Shown in pieces: positions 11,974-64,000 of a DNA stretch of 64,000 nucleotides. Source of the stretch: Dillenia suffruticosa (lineage: Eukaryota; Streptophyta; Magnoliopsida; Dilleniales; Dilleniaceae); contig JAVTVX010000016.1 in assembly GCA_033439265.1 (NCBI GenBank), positions 315,001 through 379,000 on the forward strand, given 5' to 3'. The notes under the pieces were generated by a model. It worked only from the letters and a program-made list of their open reading frames with translations, did not search any database and had not been told where the DNA came from. Positions within the stretch are counted from its first letter, which is position 1. Each line of letters begins with the position of its first letter. The translations under genes and the position numbers were made by a program.

Positions 11974-12835
11974 CATGGGGGCATTGGTAAATCGAACCTT
12001 GCTAGATGCACCTACGATCTCACGAATCTGGAAAAGTTTTTTGATTTGAGAGCATGGGCTTGTGTTTCGAGTGCTTTTGATATTTTTGGTGTAACGAAGT
12101 GATTCTACAATAGGTAGATAGAGGCAAGTAAGGAGAGATTTCTCATTGTTTTAGACGATAGCCGGAGCGAGGACGATGGAAATTGCGAAAACTTATTTAT
12201 TTCATTCAAAGTAGGACGATTGGGACCTACTCTTATTCTGTGTAAGGGTTGCCTCAATTACAAGAACCACTTCAACTTTTTATTTGAATTTTCTAAAGGA
12301 GGGAGAATGTTGTTCCATATTTTTATGACTTGCACTCGAAGCCAAAGATTTTAGTGCATACCAGAATATTAAAGTCTTTGGCAAGGAACTGGTACGAAGG
12401 TGTGATGGCTTGCCATTAGCAACGAAGACACTTGGCAGCCTCTTATGCAATCAAGATCTAGTGAAGTGGGAATATGATAGTTCATTATGGAATCATTCAA
12501 TAAGCAAAAAGATTACTCCAGCTTTGGGACTGAGCTACAACTATCTTTCTTTCCATTTCAAACGATGTTTTGCATCTCATTCAATCATTACAAAAAATTA
12601 AGAATTCGACAAGGAAGAGTTAATTTTGTTATAGATGATAGAAGGGTTTCTTAAGGAGCCAAATGAGGAGGAGGAAATGGAAGACTTGGGTCATGAGTAT
12701 TTTCATGACCTATTATCAACATCACTGTTGCAATGGTCAAGTTTAAGGGCAACAAAATTTATTATGCACAATCTTATTCATGATTTAGCTAAACAAGTTG
12801 CAGAAAGAGTTTGCTTCAGGATGGAGGATAACTAA
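11974..12835 (+). pseudogene. CC-NBS-LRR resistance gene relic (NB-ARC part)
   Basis: A decayed NB-ARC region in the order expected for a plant CNL immune receptor. Seen in turn: P-loop GGIGKSNLAR (from 11977; consensus GGVGKTTLA), RNBS-A-like RAWACVSSAFDIFGVTK, kinase-2 RFLIVLDDS, GLPL motif CDGLPLATKTLGSLL (near 12400), then a winged-helix part with IEGFLKEP and MHNLIHDLAKQVAERVCF, the MHD-like position reading MHN. Several in-frame stops and frame changes interrupt it (for example a TGA right after FGVTK and a TAG shortly after). No coiled-coil upstream and no leucine-rich repeats downstream are recognisable, so only the ATPase middle survives. It is most like RPP13-like/R1-type CNLs by motif wording. 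Confidence 0.85.
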
Positions 12836-17341: not shown

Positions 17342-19888
17342 ATGATCGAGATTGTGAGATTGTTATATTACACAAATGGTGAAGTTGTGATAGTTGAAAA
17401 TGGAGTCAGTTATGACCGTGTGCCTTCAAAGTTGATTTGGATCAGGAGAAATGCACCATTTAATGAAATGGTCGCCGTGATGTATAAGGGTCTTTAGATA
17501 AATTTAAAGAAACAATATGTAGAGATTTATCATCATTGTCCCGTATCACATTTACAAGGGGAAATATATGATACGAATTGGTATTAATTAGTGATAACAA
17601 CGATATTTTGAATTTGATGGAGTCTGCGGTGAGTATGAGAGTGGGTACGATGCATGAATTATATGTAAAGACTTACAATACTAGTACATCTGTGCAATAA
17701 GATTATGATTATACGGATGAATATCCAGAGCTCGAATGTCGAGTGGATCATACTAGCGCAGATGTGGATAATGATGTGGACGAGGAAGAAATGGAGTTAG
17801 AAGGGGTGGAAGAAGAGGCGGAAGAAGAGGACGATGATGATGAAAAGATATTGGAGAAATTCATCGTGGTAGTGGTGGTAGTTTAGCGAACCAAATAATA
17901 TTGGGATCCTCTGGAGCGACTGCACCCATTAGTGGTGGTCGGAGAAATGTCAATGCGGAGTTGATGACTTAATTCATTTCATTACAACTGCACCAGGAGG
18001 AGATGATTTTGTGACTTTCAAGGAAGATTGTAGATTGAGAAGTGATAGTGGGAGTTTTAGCGATGAATTGAAGAAAGGAACGAGATTCGAGTCGAATGAG
18101 GAGTTTATACACTTTGTGAAAATGCATCATGTGGAGCATCACTACCAATTTCGTGTTAAGAGATTATCCCCTACAATATGGACAGCGATATGTACTCAAA
18201 GGGATAATGGTTGTAAGTAGAGGTTGCGTGCACGTAAAACAAGACTTCTTAGTGTCTTTGTGATAATTGTTGTAGAGGGACTGCACACATGTGTCAATGT
18301 TGGGTTGACGCAAGATCATAGGCAATCAGATTCAAATTTGATGGCCCGACATTTTCTTAACTATGTACGGGAAGACCCAAGTGTGAAAGTCTCTTTCTTG
18401 CGAACCGTTATGGCAGAAAAAACCACATGTGCAGTTTCCCGAAAACGTGTTTGGGCTGTGAAAAGAAGGGCCATAGAAATGGTATACGGGGATTGGGAGA
18501 AATCATACAAAGAGCTACCGCGGGTTTTGGATACAATAGTCCAAAGGAATCCAGGATCACAAGTTTCATGGAAGTTGGGTCTGCTACGATCAAATGGTAA
18601 AAGGGTTTTTGAAGCTATGTTTTGGGCATTTGGTCCTAGTATCACCGCATTTAGGAGTTGTCGGCCATTGATAAATATATATGGGACTTACTTGTATGGA
18701 AAATACAAAACACAAGTTGTTGATTGTATACAGTATGGACGGGCCGAATCACATTGTTCCGTTAGCATTTGCTTTAGTGGATGTTGAGTCACTTGCATCA
18801 TGGTCGTGGTTTTTGATGTGTGTGCGAGACTTTGTTGTTGGAGATAGGCAATGTCCCTTTTGCTTAATTTTAGATCGACATGAAGGGATAAGAGTAATTG
18901 TTGCTCAGTCGGAGTTTGGATGGTCACCTCCAAATACTACGTAGCGTTTTTACACGAGATATGTCGTTAATAATTTTAACATCCATCATAAAAGCCAAGC
19001 TTGTAAGAGAGTCGCCATTATTGCTGCTTTACAACGACAACAAAGGAAATTTGATATTTATATGGCGAGGTTGAAGGAGATAAAAGATGATGCCCCCCGA
19101 GTACTTTGCGAACATTCCCCTTGAACAGGCTTTCGTTTTGGCTACATGATGACCAATATCTGTAAAAGTTATAATGCCATTCTCAAAGGTGCAAGAAATT
19201 TACCTGTTTCAGTATTGATACTTAAAACCTTTTATAATTCGGTAAACTACTTTGAGGCTAGAATCACTGAGACGAAAGCAGGAATGACAATAGGAGAGCG
19301 GTACACGAAGTATGCAAATACCATACTAGAAAGGTGGATGAACACCGTTAACGTCCATATGGTACTCTCATTTAGTAGGGAGGATGTGATCTTCGAGATA
19401 GAGACAGGGCAACGACAAACTCGGTATGGTTACAAGGGAGATAATAAATAGATCGTCAACGTCAATAATGAACATTGCACATGCGGGAAGTGGCAAACTT
19501 ATAGATATCTTGATCGCATGCAATCGCTGCACTAACACGAACGATAATCAACGTGCATATGATCGTCGGTCAATGGTATACATGGAAACATCAACTTCGT
19601 GTATATGAGTCTCATTTTTGGCCGGTGGGGGATAGATCTAGATGGCCAATGGATTCGTACCCCATTGTTATTCCCGATGGATCTCTTCGACGGATGACAA
19701 GAAGACCTAAGTCATCTCGATATCATAACGAGATGGATCTTCACGAGTCATCTTCGCGGTCATCATGTCGCAGTTGTAGTGCAGATGGTCATAATCGGAG
19801 AACATGCACAAAACAGATTAGATGTGGTCTCTGTGGCAAACAAGGACATAATCGACGACATTGTACCACCCTATCGCATGAAAATTGA
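17342..19888 (+). pseudogene. MuDR-type MULE transposase, decayed
   Basis: Pieces in the order of a MuDR transposase, in several frames. A start at 17342 gives an N-terminal module (MIEIVRLLYYTNGEVVIVEN). An acidic Glu/Asp run follows near 17760-17860. The MuDR N-terminal domain lies at about 18070-18220 (GTRFESNEEFIHFVKMH). The catalytic domain covers about 18240-18950 and includes GTYLYGKYKT and CLILDRHEGI. A SWIM-like CTCGKWQTYRYL is near 19470, and a C-terminal zinc knuckle (CGLCGKQGHNRRHC) ends near 19865. The Asp of the usual DGTHLYGKY block is Tyr here (IYGTYLYGKY), so the first catalytic acid appears lost, and multiple stops and frame changes are present. The second acid (DRH) is kept. 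The product would have cut and joined MULE ends in the nucleus. Confidence 0.9.
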
Positions 19889-20173
19889 TTGTATTTCTCT
19901 TTAAATCACAATTCCCCATGTATTTGTTATTATGCCATAGTTTGTGAATTTGTCAAATTTTGGATTTCTTTGTTTTTATTATAATGGTTAATACACATTC
20001 GCAGATATTAATGTGTCATTGAATTTTCATATATCTTTATTAATGCTGTATATTGTGAATTTGTTAAACTTTCGAATCATTTGTTTTTCTTTTAATGGTT
20101 AATGCACATTTTTGGGAGTTATGTATTGTATTTGAATTATTAATTAATTTTTCAGTTTATTTTTTTTTGCAGA

Positions 20174-22170
20174 TGGATCGTGGACCTTCTGATCTTAGTT
20201 TTCTACGATTACAGTGATGCTACCGTTCTTTTACGGTTTGGCAGGGAGACGACACTACCATTTCGCTTACTTGTCGGCGACGTGAGGCCGTGCTACGCCG
20301 TTGGGAACATGATCAGATCGACGAGCGAGTTCTCCCTTTTCTCGAGCGGTCGGGATTTTTTGGTGTTGCTCGACTACGATTTGTTCAGTTAGATTGGCAC
20401 CTGATTACGGCTCTAGTCGAACGATGGAGGCCTGAGACGCACACTTTCCATCTCCCCTACAGTGAGTTGACTATTACACTTCAGGACGTAGAGGTCATCT
20501 TAGGTACTGACTATTACACTTCAGGACGTAGAGGTCATCTTAGGGTTACCTGTGGATAGCCATCCTGTAGTATCTAGGACTGCGGGAGTATCGTGGGGTG
20601 ATATCTGTGAGAGATTGTTAGGTGTTAGACTTTCACGGACTGTATTTACAGGTTACAGTTTGTGTATGCTATGGTTGGCCGAGTTTTTTTTCTGAGTTGC
20701 CCGATGGAGTTGATGATGTATATATTGCACAGTGGATACTGGTTTATATTTTACTTTTGTTAGTAGGTGTGTTGTTTTGTGATAAAATATCATATTATGT
20801 ACATTTATAGTTTTTTAATATTGTTAGAGGATTTAGAGATTTCAGGTAGTTATAATTGGGGTTCTGCGTGTCTGGTATATATGTATAGGCAGTTTTGTAT
20901 TACCATGCACCCGACTCACGTGAGATAGGTAGTGCTTTAGTTTTGCTACAGATTTGGGGGTGGGAGTAGTTCCCTTATATGGCTCCTATTCGACTGTCGT
21001 TGCATGGAGATAGGGATGGTCCGCTTGCTTTGCGGTGGATGGCAGATTTTAATGTCATTGCTTTCCCTACACACGTAGTCTCAGTGTATAAAGAGGGACT
21101 AGATAGGTAGGTCGCGGAGCAGGTCGTATGGGTACCCTACCCGGATGAGTTACTGGCATCCCTCCCCGACTACTGTCACGAGGAGAGGGATATTTGGCAT
21201 GCGCGGGTCCCGTTGATCTGTTTTAGTATCGTGGAGTTGTACTTTTTAGACAGAGTCTTGCGACAGTTTGGAGCATATCAGCACATTCCAATACATTGTG
21301 ACACCAAGGATAGACTTCACAATACAAACAGTCGAGGCACGTTGGAGGTCGATTGGACGGTGGAGCATGCAGTCTATATTGATTGGTGGATGCACCGACG
21401 TGACTATCTATTGTTACTAGACACTTCGTGCGGACCAGCCCTCAATCCTACCTACAGTAGTTGGTTCGCAGCATTTCCTGTAGGTTCGTCGGTCGTCGGG
21501 AAGCCTCTTTGACTTACGTGGTAACTACTTTACATTTGCATTTCTGTTAGTCAATTAATATTTTTGATTTGTTTTTAAACTAACTTTAACACATTTTTTT
21601 TGCAGTGGAATACATTGCACGAGTTACGAGAGACTGCGGGTGATGACCCTCGGGGGCTTGTTGATTCAGCCATCTCGGCATTGACAGATGACATGACTTA
21701 TCTTTTCAGACGTAGACCCGCTAGAGATGGTGATGATGGTGGTGATGCAAACCGACCACGTGGGCGACGACGAGGACGAGAACGACGTACAAGACCACCA
21801 CCCTCAGCCGATCATGTGTCACCGCCGTTGTCTTAGCAGCCCGAGGATGTCGCAGGATCTTCAACTGCGTTCGGTGAGTTTTCAGATTTCTACACGCCTG
21901 TTTTTTATGACTTCCCTCAGGTTTTCACTCCGGGGCTTCTCAGAGGGGAGTTCGTCTCGATAGTTTTATGGTCGAGGGACTGACACAAGTACAAAGAGAT
22001 GATACACCACCCTTGTTTCATGTCTCCCCACTGGTTTTCTCTGACCCCCACCAGCATGATGCAGGTGCATCCCATATCTCATAGATAGATGATCTGAGAT
22101 TAGTATCTCAGTCCGATTATACTGAGAGTAGATCTGATATAAATGTTAGATATTATATTAAAAGAAGAAG
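20174..22170 (+). pseudogene. plant mobile domain (PMD, MAIN/MAIL-like) gene inside the MULE, decayed
   Basis: A second gene of the MULE, downstream of the transposase on the same strand. It opens MDRGPSDLSFLRLQ and continues in another frame with the PMD signature: AVLRRWEHDQIDERVLPFLE, SGFFGVARLRFVQLDWHLIT, ALVERWRPETHTFHLPYSEL, TITLQDVEVILG, GLPVDSHPVV, then LSLHGDRDGPLALRWMADFN and VWVPYPDELLASLPDYC. PMD proteins (MAIN, MAIL1; annotations often say 'PP7 long form homologue') occur as host genes that silence transposons and as cargo of MULEs and other elements. A 40-bp tandem duplication at 20468-20547 shifts the frame inside the domain, and there are further stops. The tail is Arg/Asp-rich (GDDGGDANRPRGRRRGRERR). 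It may contain introns, so the exact structure is uncertain. Confidence 0.85.
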
Positions 22171-37781: not shown

Positions 37782-39735
37782 CTTTTTTTTGGGTAGGAAA
37801 AGGAAAAGAAAAAACCCAAAAAAAAAAATAAAACGGCTCACAGGCTGCCCTGGCCTAAACTAACCCAATAGAATACTGGGATTGGGAGCGCTCTTGATGA
37901 GTCTTATCCGAGCAATGCCATCCGAGTCTTTCTTCAGCAACTGGAAAAGAGATGAAGGAGGAGTCATATATTACCCTCCCATAGTTAAGACTGTGGCCCA
38001 ATGACGCCAAATGATCTGCACAAACATTAGCTTCTTTAAAAATGTTCTTCACCGATACAACGTTAACCATCTTCATCAGCTGAGTGCATTCCTCAATCAT
38101 CACGCTCATCGGGTGATGTGGTGGAACTCCTCTTGACAGCGCCTCAGCAACAATAGATGAATCTACTTCCACTTCAATAATCCTTAAGTTTTTGTTATTG
38201 ATCATTAATAACTCTTCTCTAACACCCCACAACTTTGCCACGAGAATAGAAGAAATACCCACATTAACAAAAAAAACCTCCACTCGATTTTCTTCCTCAT
38301 CTCTTAGGATGCCTCCTGTCGCAGTTTGTTTACAACTTTGCCACGAGAATAGAAGAAATACCCACATTAACCCAAAAAACCTCCACTCGATTTTCTTCCT
38401 CGTCTCTTAGGATGCCTCCGGTTGCAGTTTGTTTACGGCTGAGAGCTACAGAGCCATCTGTATTCAATTTAAAATTATATCCACTGGGGGGCTCCCACTT
38501 GACCCACACTGGATTATCATTCACACTTCCAATCCTTTTTTTGAAAGCATTAATCATTTCGTTAGCCATACCAATTGCCTACTTTGCTACTAGGATACGA
38601 TGAGTGAATTTTTTCTGATATACAAGCTTACACCTGCTCTTCCAAATATTCTACAATGTCGACGTGAACCTGGCACTATAGATGGAGTTGCCCTTGGCTT
38701 CAGAACCATGAATACCTATCTTCAACCAATGCACCCTATTGGAGGACCAAAACTCTGGAGTAATAGATGACTGAGGCAGAACTCTTCCCCAAATTTCCTT
38801 TGCCCAACAGCAATCTCTGAGACAATGCAAATTAGATTCTTCATCCATTCTGCAAATAGGGCACACAGCATCTTCCGTGAATTTTCTTCTTTTTCTCTCC
38901 ATATTCGTCATTATCCTGTCCTTCACAACCAACCAAATGAATAGCTTGATACGTTCCTGACACTTGACATTCCATACCCATTTGTAGTCATTGTTGTCTG
39001 TGTCTTCGAGAACATTACTTTCCTGAAGAATTTTGTATGTAGATGCCACGGTAAACTCACCATTGGAGCTACCTTTCCTGTAGTAATCATCCCGAGCTCT
39101 TACCTCTTTTGGAATCATGACTCCCCTTATTACTTCCACTTTTTCTATAGGCAACAAACTTTTGAGCTCTTCAATTTTCCATTCCTTGATATCGTTAATA
39201 AATGATTAACTTTTATTGGGGTGACCACGTTTCCACGCGTGGACAGCAATTGATCAAGAGTTTCTCCTCCTACCCACAAATCAGACCTAACTTCCACTTA
39301 AGACCAAGCACTCCCTACTTCTAATTACCCCTGTCCACACTGAGGAGGCTCCTAGCTTAATTGTGACTCAACAACTCTCACCTTTCAAATTTTCGTTAGA
39401 TTATCACACTACAGGTTTTTCTCCCCTTTCATGATTTTCCAACTTAGCTTTACTGACAAAGCTAGGTTACTATCTCTCATTTTCCTCAAACCCAAACCTC
39501 CCTCACACTTAGCTTTACATACTTGAGCCTAGTTGATCAAATGTACCTGTTTCTTATTATCCGACCAACCCCATAAAAAATCTCTATTCAATCGATCAAG
39601 CTTGTTACAAGCGGACCCAGGCAACCAGGAGGATTGCATTGTGTAAATCGGAAGGGCCGCAGTCACGGATTGAATCAAAGTTCTTTTACCTGCGAAACTT
39701 AAAAAGTTAGCTTTCCAACCAAAAATTATTACAAA
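37782..39735 (-). mobile_element. L1-type LINE, 3' part (end of RT, zf-RVT, RNase H)
   Basis: The minus strand encodes, in order, the end of the reverse transcriptase region (FLSFAGKRTLIQSVTAALPI, LNRDFLWGWSDNKKQVHLIN), the zf-RVT block (FIWLVVKDRIMTNMERKRRK, CPICRMDEESNLHCLRDC) and a plant RNase H-like domain (FKLNTDGSVALS, TATGGILRDEE, IEVEVDSSIVAEAL). A T-run near 37784-37791 could be its A-tail. A 104-bp tandem duplication lies within the RNase H part, and stops are present. The upstream part (endonuclease, most of RT) is missing. Confidence 0.85.
38231..38438 (-). repeat. 104-bp tandem duplication in the LINE RNase H region
   Basis: The block starting ACTTTGCCACGAGAATAG occurs at 38231 and again at 38335, with few differences between copies. 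A unit of 104 bp is not a multiple of three, so the reading frame is broken by it. Confidence 0.85.
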
Positions 39736-45073: not shown

Positions 45074-46591
45074 CTAAGCAAGTGGCTGCATGAAACTTTG
45101 CAATACAACGGTTTCGACCGTGATACCAGGACCAAACCCAAGGAGGACTCCCCATTCAAGCCCTTCACCAGTGGTTGGCTTCCCTTCTCGCATGGAGTTC
45201 TTCCTCATCTCGTCTAGAATGAACATAACACAGGCGCTGGTCATGTTACCATACTCACTCAGCACGTGTCTCGAGGCCCTCAGTTTCTCCTCCTTAAGTC
45301 CCAACTTGGCCTCCACCTGGTCCAGAATTGCAGGGCCACCCGGATGCACTATCCAGAAGAGAGAATTCCAGTCGCTGATCCCGATTGGAGTGAATACCTC
45401 ATCCAAACACTTTACAATGTTGTCCGAGATTATTTTTGAGACATTCTTTGACAGGTGGAATGTCAACCCTGCTTCCCGCAAGTGTAGGTGTATGGCGTCC
45501 TGTGAGTCTGGGAGGATTGTCTGTGCTGCGCACACCAGCTGGAATAGCGGGCGCTCTATGGATATGTCTGGATCTGCACCGACTATGACCGCAGCTGCAC
45601 CATCACTGAAGAGGGCCTGCCCAATGAGGGAGTCAACGTGGGTCTCGGAGGGTCCCCGGAAAATAATGGACGTGATTTCGGAGCAGACAAGGAGGACACG
45701 AGCGCAGGCATTGTTCTCAGCTAGGTCCTTGGACAGACGAAGGACAGTGCCGCCTGCAAAGCAGCCCTGCTGGAACACCGTGTGCCGCTGGACCGATGGG
45801 TTGAGTCCGAGGAGCTTGGCGAGCTGATAGTCGGCACCAGGCAAGCTGACACAACTTGTAGTGCAGAAGACCAGGTGCGTGATCTTTGATTTGGGCTGTC
45901 CCCATTCCTTGATTGCTTTCTCGGCTGCTTCTTTTCCTAGCTTCGGCGTCTCGACTACCGATATGTCTTGCCTTGCGTCAAGGGATGGTGCCATGAATGC
46001 GCATATGTTTGGATTCTTTTTCAGCAGCTCCTCGGTTAGGTGCATGTATCTCTTCTTGATCCTGGTATTTTCGCCTGTTCATTTGACATAATTTTGAAGA
46101 GATTTTAGATTTATTTAGTCTCAATCCTAAATGCAAATTTTGATATTTTGTAAAACAAAATTACATTTTGTCACGTGTCAACTGACGTTAACATGTGTTT
46201 TGGAAGCCATAAATATACTATAAGTTCAATAAATGTTCTCACTACAATTTGATTATTTAAATTCTTTTTCCAAAGTTTTGATTAAATAAATACTTCAGCG
46301 GTCTTTATGTCATATTTTCTGATAGAGAGAGAGAGAGAGAGAGAGAATGAAACACGTCAAAAAGTAATGTACTTCATTAATCAACAGAAAATAAGAGACA
46401 TTACATATGCGCTTGAATTTCTGCTTCAGTTCAGTCTTGTGCTCGCTGTTGGTGACGCGAAAATAAAAATCTGGGTAGTCGGCCTGGTGGATGCAGTTGG
46501 AAGGAGTGGCAGTGCCAATGGCGAGAATAGTGGCTGGACCATTTGCTCTCTGCAAATTTCTGATTTTTTCCGCTGATGTTGATGTGGCCAT
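45074..46591 (-). CDS. type III polyketide synthase, CHS-like, divergent active site
   Basis: Two exons, 46405-46591 and 45074-46074, joined across a 330-bp GT-AG intron that splits the Cys codon at residue 63, the conserved intron place of chalcone synthases. Product 395 aa, full family length. The catalytic triad is present: Cys167 (QQGCFAGG), His306 ([12 protein letters not shown]) and Asn339 (YGNMTSAC), with gatekeeper Phe218 and the GFGPG loop. In CHS numbering the key cavity residues differ: Thr197 is Ile, Gly256 is Leu (with Asp255 His), Ser338 is Thr; also Gly134 Cys, Asp136 Ser and Met137 Leu. Changes at 197/256/338 mark non-chalcone enzymes such as aloesone, pentaketide-chromone, octaketide and 2-pyrone synthases, and as I recall aloesone synthase has Ala/Leu/Thr. 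It probably condenses malonyl-CoA on a small starter; the product cannot be fixed from sequence. Cytosolic. No disabling change is seen. Confidence 0.95.
46321..46347. repeat. (GA)n microsatellite in the PKS intron
   Basis: About 12 GA units inside the single intron, near its donor. Confidence 0.9.
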
Positions 46592-46731
46592 TTTCTAATT
46601 TCTCTCTGTTCTAGTTTGCTAACCTTGCCTTTATGCGTTTTTTTTGGGGGGAGGGGGGGGGATTCAGACTCTCGTAATGATTTGATCTGACGTTGCTGAT
46701 GGGTGACTGTTTGGGTGGGTGTTGATGGTTA

Positions 46732-46738
46732 ATTTATA
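46732..46738 (-). promoter_or_regulatory. TATA box of the PKS gene
   Basis: TATAAAT on the minus strand, 141 bases before the ATG, in good surroundings for a core promoter. It would imply a leader of roughly 110 bases. Confidence 0.6.
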
Positions 46739-47036
46739 GACACCAGCATTAGGGCAACTTTGGTAGCCCCAATTGACGAGGCTTTTTTTTATTTTATTTT
46801 AAAATTAAGTGATTAGAGTTGTGAGTAATACGTTTGGGTCCCGAACGCTGCATGCCTTGGAGGTATGTACAAATGAGGACGTGAAGGGGTGAGAAAATAG
46901 GATGAGGGCATATAATTCTTATTCACAAAAATAAAAGGGATCATGAGATGCTTTACAAGTTTAAAATAAAAAAAACGCAATAAAATCAAAAAAATAGAAA
47001 AAAATTCAAAACAACACTAGTTTTGTATAAAATTGT

Positions 47037-60563: not shown

Positions 60564-63500
60564 CACTACAAAACATACGATTTTAGCGATGGAAAAAGTT
60601 CGTCGCTATTTTGTAACAAATTTAGTAGTGAAAATTTTTTTTCACAATTGTGACACGAAAAAGTATTCGTGACTAAATTAGCAATAGATACTTTATTTGC
60701 GGCCAAATTTGTTACTAATTGGTGACGAAAAATTTTTTGTTACTGAATTTATCACTAATCAGTGATAAAAAATTTTTCGTTGCAAAATTCGTTGCTAATT
60801 AGCAACGAATAGAAATTTCATGGCTAAATTTTGTTGTGGATATTGTTATTTATCGCTCAATTTAGCGACAAATACTCTATTCATCGCTAAATTTAGTGAC
60901 GAAAAAATTTCATGGTAAATTTCGTCGTTAACTACAAAAATTTTCTGTCGCTAAATTCATTACTAATTAGCCACGAAAAAAAATATTCGCCACAAAATTT
61001 AGTAACGAACTCCAATATTCATAACTAAATTTGTCACTAACTAGCTATAAAAAAGTATTCATTGCTAAATTCGTCACTAATTAGCCACAAAAAATATTTA
61101 TGACTAAATCCGTCGTTAATTTATTACCGGTATTTTAAAATTTATGGCTAATTATGTAACTAAATTTATTTTATACTCTATTAGGAAATTTTTTTAACCG
61201 TGTCTTTCTTTTTAATCTATTATGAATAACGAAATTGAGTTGAATATATAGTGAGTATTATAATTCTCAACAAATAGACAATTTTCAATAATAAATAATT
61301 CAATTAATCTCTAACAAATAATTTTTTTCAGTCGCTATTGTCAAGGTTACCCTTTGTGTTTTTCTTCTTCTACGTCCGTTGACTTCTCTTATAAATAATT
61401 CAATCATCTTTGAAAGTTTAACTATTCATCTTCATTCATCATCATCAATAAGAAAGACAATAGATCATACATTCACGTCCATTGACCCATCTCGTTTGGC
61501 AATTAGATCAAACAGGAATTTTTAGAGGACAACGACAATGTGATGGATGGCTACTAAGAGGCAGTAGTCCATTTATAGACTATTCTAGTGTTTCAAAAAA
61601 TAAAATAAAAAAGAAAAAGAATAATAAGTTAATATTATATTTTATATTTTATATTTTATATTTTACTTATTAAAGAATAACGTTATTTTATTTTTTAAAA
61701 TATATTATTACTTTATTTTAAATTAGTATTTTATTATTTTACAACAGTATCCGTCGCTAAGTTAGCAACGGATACAAAGTTAATATATTTTTTATTTAAA
61801 TTAGTATTTAATTTTATATTATATTTTTTCTTTTTTTATTTTATTATTAATTTTATTTGGTAAATCAAAAAAATAATTTGTTATTCAATTTTAATTAAAT
61901 CAAATTTATCTTTTTGGCTCAAAAATGAAGATTTAGAGATGGATTCTTGAAATTTGTGGATAAATTTAGTCACGAATTTTGAAAATTTATCGCTAAATTT
62001 AGCCACGAGTATGAGAAATCCATAGCTATAGCGATGGATTTCTAGAATCCGTGGCTAGCTTAATCTTTTTTTTCTTAAAATTAGTATTTTATATTATATT
62101 TTATTATTTTATATTAATAAATCATATTTATTATTTTATAATATTTTAAACAAAATTTTAAATTAGTATTTTATTTTATCTTTTATATTTTATTTTTTAA
62201 ATATTACTTTATTTTTTAAATATTTTATTATTTTATAACTAGTGACGGATACTAAGTTAATATATGTTTTATTTAAATTCGCATTTTATATTTTATTTTC
62301 TTATTTTATATTTTATTTTATTATTTTATTATTCATTTTATTTGATAAATCAAGAAAAATAATTGATGATAAAATTAACAAATCATACTCTTTTATCGGA
62401 TAAATCAAGAAAAATAATTTGTTATTCTATCTTAATTAATCAAATTTACTCAAAAAATAAGGATTTAGCTAGGATTCTGGAAATCCATAGCTAAATTTAT
62501 CCACTGATTTCCGGAATCTGTGGCTAACTTTATATATTTTTTAATTAGTATTTTATATTTTATTTTATTTTATATTAACAAATCATATTTATTAATTTAT
62601 AATATTTTAAACAATATTTTAAATTAGCATTTTATTTTTTAAATAATAATATAATTTTATTTTCAAAATCTTTTATTATTTTATTTTAAATTAGCATTTT
62701 CTTATTTTATTATTTTATAACTAGCGACGGATATGAAGTTAATATATATATATTTTTTTAAATTAACATTTTATGTTTTATATTATTATTTTTTCCTTTA
62801 TTTTATTATTCATTTTATGGTAAATCAAGAAAAATAATTGATGCTAAAATTAACAAATCACATTCCTTTTATTGGATAATTCAAGAAAAATAATTAGTTA
62901 ATCTATCTTAATTAATCAAATTTATCTTTTTGGCTCAAAATATGAGAATTTAGCAATGGATTCTAGAAATCTATCGCTAAATTCAGCCATGGATTCCTCA
63001 TAACAATGGCTAAATTTAGCGAGAGATTTCCGGAATCCGTGGCTAACTTAATCTTTTTTTATTTAATTAGTATTTTAGATTTTTTATTATATTTTATTAT
63101 TTTATATTAACAAATCATATTTATTATATTATAATATTTTAAACAATATTTTAAATTAGAATTTTATTATTTTGTTGTTTTATAACTAGCGACAGATACT
63201 AAGTTAATATAGTTTTTACTTAAATTAGTATTTTGTATTTTATTTTATTTTTTGTCTTTTATTTTATTATTTTATTATTCATTTTATTTGGTAAATCAAG
63301 AAAAATAATTGATAATAAAATTAATAAATCATATTCCTTTTATTGGATGAATGAAGAAAAATAATTTGTTATTCTAAATTAATTAATCAAATTTATCTTT
63401 TTTACTCAAAAAATGAGGATTTAGTGACTGATTCCAGAAATCTGTGGCTAAATTTAGCCACGGATTTCCGGAATCCGTGGCTATCTTAATTTTTTTTAAG

Positions 63501-64000
63501 TTAGTATTTTTATTTTATTTTATTTTATTTTATTAATTTATATTAACAAATCTTATTTATTATTTTATAATATTTTAAACAATATTTAAAATTTGTATTT
63601 CATTTTTTATATTTTATTTTTTAAGAATAATTTTATATTTTATTTTTTAAAATCTTTTATTATTTTTTTTAAATTAGCATTTTATTATTTTATAACTAGC
63701 GACAGATACTAAGTTGATATATTTTTTTTTTCTTTTATTATTTTATTATCCATTTTATTTGGTAAATCAAAAAAAATAATTGATGATAAAATTAACATAT
63801 CATATTCCTTTTATTGGATTAATCATGAAAAATAATTTGTTATTCTATCTTAATTAATTAAATTTATCTATTTGGCTCAAAAAATATTTTATTTCTTTAT
63901 TTAGTGACAATTTAATCAAAATCGAATTTAAATAGTAAGAAAAGTTCAATGAGAATAGAAAACGAAAAAAAATTACCCTAAGGTAAATGAAAAAAAAAAT
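60564..64000 (+). mobile_element. CACTA-like element, left end, running off the window
   Basis: It begins CACTACAAAACATACGA and then shows degenerate TTAGCGACGAA-type units in both orientations to about 61140, as at 40843. A less repetitive stretch at 61140-61690 follows, then a tandem array to the window end. No transposase is seen, and the right terminus is outside, so membership of the array in the element is inferred. Confidence 0.6.
61690..64000 (+). repeat. tandem array, unit about 480 bp, five anchors
   Basis: The anchor CGGATAC.AAGTTAATATA-like word recurs at 61769, 62246, 62728, 63193 and 63703 (spacings 477, 482, 465, 510). Each unit has long (TTTTA)n-type AT tracts, GGTAAATCAAGAAAAATAATTG, and a pair of AGCCACGGATT / AATCCGTGGCT inverted words, best kept as a 27-bp palindrome at 63456-63482. 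Confidence 0.85.

Follow-up and report, generated by a model that had tools for sequence, protein, structure and literature searches.

Does the only type III polyketide synthase (PKS) gene in a 64-kb stretch of the Dillenia suffruticosa genome still make chalcone, or has its active site been rebuilt for another product? The stretch (referred to below as the window) covers positions 315001 to 379000 of the forward strand of contig JAVTVX010000016.1 (C16; assembly GCA_033439265.1), and the gene, intact and composed of two exons encoding 395 amino acids (aa), lies on its minus strand (46591-45074). Most likely, on the alignments described below, it is an intact neofunctionalized duplicate of a chalcone synthase (CHS) gene, with coumaroyl and cyclization pockets narrowed by Ile197, Leu256, Thr338, and Ile196 (residue numbering is that of M. 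sativa CHS2, assigned through an alignment with PDB chain 1i89 as anchor). The enzyme probably forms a non-chalcone tri- to pentaketide from a small starter. We favor this reading because the three bulkier replacements are of the kind that converts CHS to 2-pyrone synthase (2-PS), because canonical CHS is encoded by three separate genes of the genome, and because a pair of PKS genes on C16 is under constraint. By analogy, these observations support the proposal, made in a preliminary description of the locus, that a small starter gives a product other than chalcone.

On its domains and motifs, the protein is a member of the plant type III PKS superfamily. Pfam matches to Chal_sti_synt_N (residues 8 to 231; 1.7e-111, 371.5 bits) and Chal_sti_synt_C (residues 241 to 389; 1.1e-67, 227.2 bits) both far exceeded the cut-off of 27 bits, and the triad of Cys164, His303, and Asn336 is retained together with Phe215, Phe265, and the GFGP motif. 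Chance can be ruled out as an explanation, as the protein is 77.6% identical to a CHS from the same genome over 393 columns. Splice enumeration yielded 31 open GT/GC-AG joins, of which the chosen one gives a protein that aligns with CHS over its full length. The exon joint interrupts a Cys codon within RI-C, and the equivalent joint, searched for specifically, was present in four of four further genes (three CHS genes of this genome and a second PKS copy on C16). A TATA-box-like TATAAAT is located about 147 bases 5' of the ATG, inside an upstream stretch conserved with the second copy. The gene model, the Pfam domains, and the alignment to 1i89 thus bear out the earlier statement that the catalytic residues and the full length are kept.

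The residue set of functional CHS (Thr197, Gly256, and Ser338) occurs in all nine CHS rows aligned besides a G256L mutant chain and is absent from the window PKS, which has Ile, Leu, and Thr instead, accompanied by V196I. These three residues, as well as His255, Cys134, and Leu137, had been listed in the preliminary description, and every one was confirmed. Further changes relative to CHS are D136S, F371L, G216S, and K62N. In the same alignment table, Ser216 is also found in Arabidopsis CHS and Asn62 in Rheum BAS. Position 62 is presumably a CoA contact; as Rheum BAS carries Asn62 too, K62N alone is no sign of decay.

Previous research on CHS mutants has shown that T197L/G256L/S338I works as 2-PS and that T197L alone yields a 2-PS-like enzyme (PMC6274091, PMC4887977, PMC3962132, PMC8551677). 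According to the same four sources, starter choice is set by residue 256 and chain length by residue 197, which is Leu in 2-PS (triketide), Met in pentaketide chromone synthase (PCS; pentaketide), Ala in aloesone synthase (ALS; heptaketide), and Gly in OKS. They further report that bulk at 197 and 338 shuts the coumaroyl pocket, that Leu256 accompanies an acetyl-CoA starter, and that OKS G207 variants (A, T, M, L, F, and W) form tri- to heptaketides. The sets given in the preliminary description for ALS (Ala/Leu/Thr), 2-PS (Leu/Leu/Ile), and PCS (Met/Leu/Val) agree with PMC6274091 and PMC8551677, and those for 2-PS and PCS also with PDB sequences. The ALS set is given in PMC8551677, while the available text of PMC6274091 describes ALS only as being without the CHS residues. 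The preliminary description knew of no enzyme with the Ile/Leu/Thr set, and neither this set nor T197I in polyketide or chalcone synthases was found in a limited literature search that covered few subscription papers.

With CHS (C29 of this genome; PDB 4yjy, 6dxb, and 7bur) the window PKS shares the family, the triad, and the gatekeepers, and with the CHS genes of its own genome also a single phase-1 intron in the Cys60 codon, but Thr197/Gly256/Ser338 are replaced. A bulky residue at 197, Leu256, an enlarged residue at 338, and Ile196 are held in common with Gerbera 2-PS (1ee0; 66.4% identity), whereas the 2-PS set is Leu/Leu/Ile and the window PKS retains the CHS-like Ser133 and Ile254; it equals 2-PS in bulk at 197 and 256 and is smaller at 338. 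The monocot Aloe enzymes PCS and OKS (2d3m and 7dtq; 59.3% and 61.3% identity) share Asp252, His255, Leu256, Ser268, Ile210, and Leu371 with it but differ in having Met or Gly197, Val338, and Ser132/Cys133; from the PCS set at 197/256/338 only Leu256 is found in the window PKS. Judged against a provisional Rheum ALS sequence, identity is 63.4%, and Ser268 is again shared. Leu256 and Thr338 are likewise common to Rheum ALS and the window PKS, but Ala197 in ALS leaves room for a heptaketide (PMC8551677) and the window PKS has Ile197.

By crude residue volumes, the three positions would group the window enzyme with PCS and 2-PS and separate it from CHS, OKS, and ALS. With these volumes and the provisional ALS sequence, the sum at 197/256/338 was 449.5 Å^3 in the window PKS, compared to 265 in CHS, 367 in OKS, 371 in ALS, 470 in PCS, and 500 in 2-PS; isoleucine and leucine have the same volume. 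Summed over 11 cavity positions, the window PKS (1573) lies between 2-PS (1590) and PCS (1553), with ALS at 1536 and CHS at 1333. As ALS is barely apart from PCS, however, this longer sum is a weak guide to chain length.

Several observations weigh against a remodeled cavity and a short acetate-derived product. The window PKS departs from CHS at 42 of the 267 positions invariant in the nine CHS rows, and these changes are only marginally enriched in the cavity (4/10 cavity positions versus 38/257 elsewhere; Fisher P = 0.055, uncorrected). Moreover, fewer invariant cavity positions are altered than in 2-PS or in the second C16 copy (6/10 each). A bulky residue at 197 does not always abolish chalcone activity, as traces of it persisted in PcCHS1 C198F and the double mutant Q82P/C198F produced chalcone (PMC4887977). 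As isoleucine is beta-branched and no characterized Ile197 enzyme was found for comparison, the chain-length reading is an interpolation. Finally, a single-sequence AlphaFold model of exon 2 reached a mean pLDDT of only 38.8, and the fold was discarded.

The genome (596 Mb, 37 contigs) was searched in six frames for PF00195, giving 46 candidates, all of them scored, and 26 matches at exon level. Canonical CHS genes, each with Thr197/Gly256/Ser338 and the full CHS cavity set, are located on C1, C11, and C29. Two further genes (C30 and C21) are called LAP-type on the basis of Gly197, which is reported for the LAP class (PMC4973071). The window PKS does not belong to LAP5/LAP6, being 40.8 to 42.2% identical to these two genes and having Ile197 rather than Gly197. 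Within the 64-kb window, tblastn returned only two chance-level matches (E = 5.3) beyond the gene itself.

Incomplete or broken PKS fragments were found on C8, C10, C19, and C30, and there was an additional weak PF00195 match at C21:969580 (E = 7e-4). The C10 fragment (8456832-8457002) is a lone open CHS-type exon 1 that is 65.6% identical to window exon 1 over residues 3 to 63; no exon 2 was present within about 3.5 kb downstream, and a longer intron is possible. The broken copy at C8:1255500-1259500 resembles, by eye, the C21 LAP-type gene. On C30, degenerate PKS fragments with stops (18.72-18.77 Mb) are situated in and beside a tandem O-methyltransferase (PF00891) array (18.63-18.73 Mb), perhaps what is left of an earlier PKS-methyltransferase neighborhood.

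A second intact PKS gene (C16:397873-396063), located 34 kb from the window PKS, encodes a protein 90.4% identical to it with Gly133, Ile196, Phe197, Met254, Leu255, Leu256, and Thr338. Its altered CHS-invariant cavity positions (133, 196, 197, 254, 256, and 338) are exactly the six altered in Gerbera 2-PS. Differences between the two C16 proteins affect 4 of the 11 cavity positions and 32 of the 374 remaining ones (Fisher P = 0.013, uncorrected). With the C29 CHS as reference, G216S, D136S, M137L, and K62N fall on the branch of the window copy and S133G and I254M on that of the second copy, while at 195, 197, and 255 each copy departs both from CHS and from the other copy.

The synonymous divergence (dS) between the two C16 genes is 0.18 to 0.20 and the ratio of nonsynonymous to synonymous divergence (omega) is 0.23 to 0.26 (NG86, 0.23; bootstrap 0.14 to 0.34, maximum among 300 replicates 0.42). 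The CHS genes on C1 and C11 have nearly the same dS (0.19 to 0.21), and the C16 duplication is therefore about as old as the event behind that pair. As omega of the C1/C11 pair is about 0.05, the C16 genes appear to be under weaker constraint than true CHS. On these values, the two genes are diverging under purifying selection as a pair; a pairwise omega says nothing on each copy singly. A third copy lies in pieces between the two intact genes (C16 395.4-395.7, 390.8, and 387.0-387.2 kb), and two of these three carry in-frame stops. By eye, the frames that separate the first two pieces (391.1-395.2 kb) resemble a copia-type gag-pol element.

Where did the C16 genes come from? Apart from its tandem copy, the nearest relative of the window PKS among the compared rows is the C29 CHS (77.6%), ahead of the C1/C11 CHSs (74.1%), 2-PS, OKS, and PCS. 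All ten of its top PDB hits are chalcone synthases (rice CHS1, 671 bits, versus 600 bits for 2-PS). Third codon positions differ in 42.7% of codons between the window PKS and C29, 54.1% between C29 and C1, and 55.9% between the window PKS and C1. In every one of 2000 codon bootstraps, the distance to C29 was the shortest of these for the window PKS (for the second copy, in 1999 of them); the comparison presumes roughly equal synonymous rates. The G+C content at third positions is 0.758 in C29 versus 0.57 to 0.60 in the others and does not explain this closeness, as a higher value should drive C29 away from all others.

Protein trees were less decisive. A 24-row tree placed the C16 pair just outside all rows except Aloe and LAP (91/79 and 87/77), a placement that we distrust because the LAP root is long, five approximately unbiased (AU) tests reject nothing, and re-rooted trees disagree. 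Forced groupings with all CHS rows (P = 0.153), C29 (0.273), 2-PS (0.271; a sister pairing neither rejected nor supported), Aloe (0.498), and the provisional ALS (0.206) were all retained. When trees of 16 and 13 rows were rooted on two CHS rows regarded as monocot (4yjy and 8v8m), the window PKS fell in an unresolved set with other CHSs. Protein data neither recovered nor rejected the link to C29 (AU P = 0.353), which rests on the DNA distances. The C16 genes are best read as old offspring of a C29-type CHS and not as a separate ancient non-CHS clade. The preliminary description had named a position outside the CHS clade as favoring its claim, a placement that is not supported, and had regarded grouping with true chalcone synthases as evidence against a non-chalcone product. 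On the DNA distances, the gene groups with them; however, this does not decide function, as grape STS and Citrus/Aegle ACS/QNS (stilbene, acridone, and quinolone synthases, none of them CHSs) share the same unresolved radiation.

These data also allow other readings to be weighed. Descent from a CHS and the ten CHS matches in PDB would suit a kinetically altered CHS that continues to yield chalcone or a benzalacetone/bisnoryangonin derailment product. As the three positions controlling starter and chain length have changed together and the genome has three canonical CHS genes, this is improbable. A pentaketide specialist similar to PCS, producing 5,7-dihydroxy-2-methylchromone (noreugenin) or a 5-methylcoumarin precursor from five malonyl-CoA, is somewhat unlikely: the six residues shared with both Aloe enzymes point toward it, as does the triad volume, where PCS (469.6) comes closest among the other 11 rows, but Aloe Ser132, Cys133, and Met161 are missing, identity to PCS is far below that to the C29 CHS, and the 11-position volume is marginally closer to 2-PS. 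The 5-methylcoumarins (siderin and ekersenin) and noreugenin-type alkaloids of Meliaceae (PMC10450223, PMC8466584, PMC6363240, PMC13063475, PMC7528382) would fit such a product, but a Toona origin of the genome is not supported: neither of two Toona ciliata qPCR primers from Table 1 of PMC7528382 matched it (a 24-mer with up to 2 mismatches and a 21-mer with up to 1), while a control 24-mer from the window matched once. Best identities of 58% to an actinidin and 44% to a walnut 2S albumin speak against Actinidia and Juglandaceae.

An enzyme that uses medium-chain or branched acyl-CoA starters, similar to VPS or OLS, is more doubtful still. OLS has Leu197 and favors C4-C8 starters (PMC8551677), but it retains Gly256 and Ser338 and alters 132 and 194, where the window PKS is CHS-like and carries Leu256. 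Finally, the frame could be intact with function already lost, as in the broken third copy nearby. K62N, G216S, D136S, and M137L on the window copy's own branch, and the 15 amino acid changes since the split compared to 9 in the other copy (13 undecided), would be in line with decay; synonymous counts, however, are alike on both branches (15 and 17, with 14 ambiguous), full length, triad, and proximal upstream region are conserved, and omega of the pair, with the restriction given above, is well below 1. Decay is thus the least probable of these explanations.

If the window PKS is a neofunctionalized duplicate with narrowed pockets, p-coumaroyl-CoA would be excluded, and Cys164 would be loaded by acetyl-CoA or by malonyl-CoA decarboxylated in place. 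Two to four malonyl-CoA extensions would follow, and the chain would leave chiefly as a lactone, for example triacetic acid lactone, as in 2-PS. By analogy with 2-PS, a triketide pyrone as main product has a chance just short of even; a pentaketide chromone or 5-methylcoumarin-type compound would be the second choice. The second copy, with Phe197, should form an equally short or shorter chain.

Coordinates of the window PKS gene, its key codons, and its upstream region
Feature	Window positions	Strand	Remarks
Exon 1	46405..46591	-	Codes for residues 1-62 plus the first base of Cys63; splice enumeration, tblastn, equivalent joint in four genes of this genome
Intron (single, phase 1)	46075..46404	-	GT..AG, 330 bp; carries GA microsatellite
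Exon 2	45074..46074	-	Remainder of protein including stop codon
Catalytic Cys (CHS 164)	45761..45763	-	TGC; sequence and alignment
Catalytic His (CHS 303)	45344..45346	-	CAT; sequence and alignment
Catalytic Asn (CHS 336)	45245..45247	-	AAC; sequence and alignment
Ile at CHS 197	45662..45664	-	ATT; Thr in CHS rows, Phe in second C16 copy
Leu at CHS 256	45485..45487	-	CTA; Gly in CHS
Thr at CHS 338	45239..45241	-	ACC; Ser in CHS
Upstream stretch conserved with second C16 copy	46592..46863	-	75% over 281 aligned columns

There is no evident biosynthetic cluster around the gene. A whole-genome search for O-methyltransferases (PF00891) gave 83 exon pieces, none of them within C16:315-401 kb and two on C16 at 17.8 Mb. 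Open frames of at least 90 aa in the window and in C16:379.0-400.5 kb were read by eye; those longer than 260 aa were PKS frames, a bromodomain frame, and copia-like frames, and nothing resembling a P450 or UGT was noticed by eye, no profile search for P450s or UGTs having been made. Elsewhere in the window, transposase-like frames on the plus strand (17933-21509; by eye Mutator-like, with CCHC knuckles) adjoin two plant mobile domain (PF10536) pieces on the same strand, and the sole one of these frames scanned (18221-18784) had no Pfam match. An NB-ARC fragment (12329-12598) and a zf-RVT (reverse-transcriptase-associated) fragment (38654-39205) were also present, as was a tandem array with a 471-bp period (62221-63538; 2.8 copies, 74% matches) in very AT-rich surroundings (16% G+C over 62001-64000).

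Tandem type III PKS genes with altered cavities are known elsewhere, such as CHS-L of Senna tora with Asn or Ser197, Leu256, and Trp338 (PMC10003783). The window PKS thus appears to be a case of ordinary neofunctionalization, with a triad that the limited literature search did not find, and leaves the picture of the family unchanged. It is possible, albeit doubtful, that the equally young Ile197 and Phe197 enzymes, which also differ at 133, 216, and 254, are natural chain-length variants whose origin from CHS was independent of that of 2-PS, ALS, and the Aloe enzymes, and that they produce two distinct short scaffolds built from acetate and so far linked to no enzyme of this plant lineage. If the reading of a narrowed, acetate-primed cavity is true, the locus would represent a further independent conversion of CHS to an acetate-primed enzyme through the same three positions, and the two genes would provide a natural Ile197/Phe197 pair for probing how residue 197 sets polyketide length.
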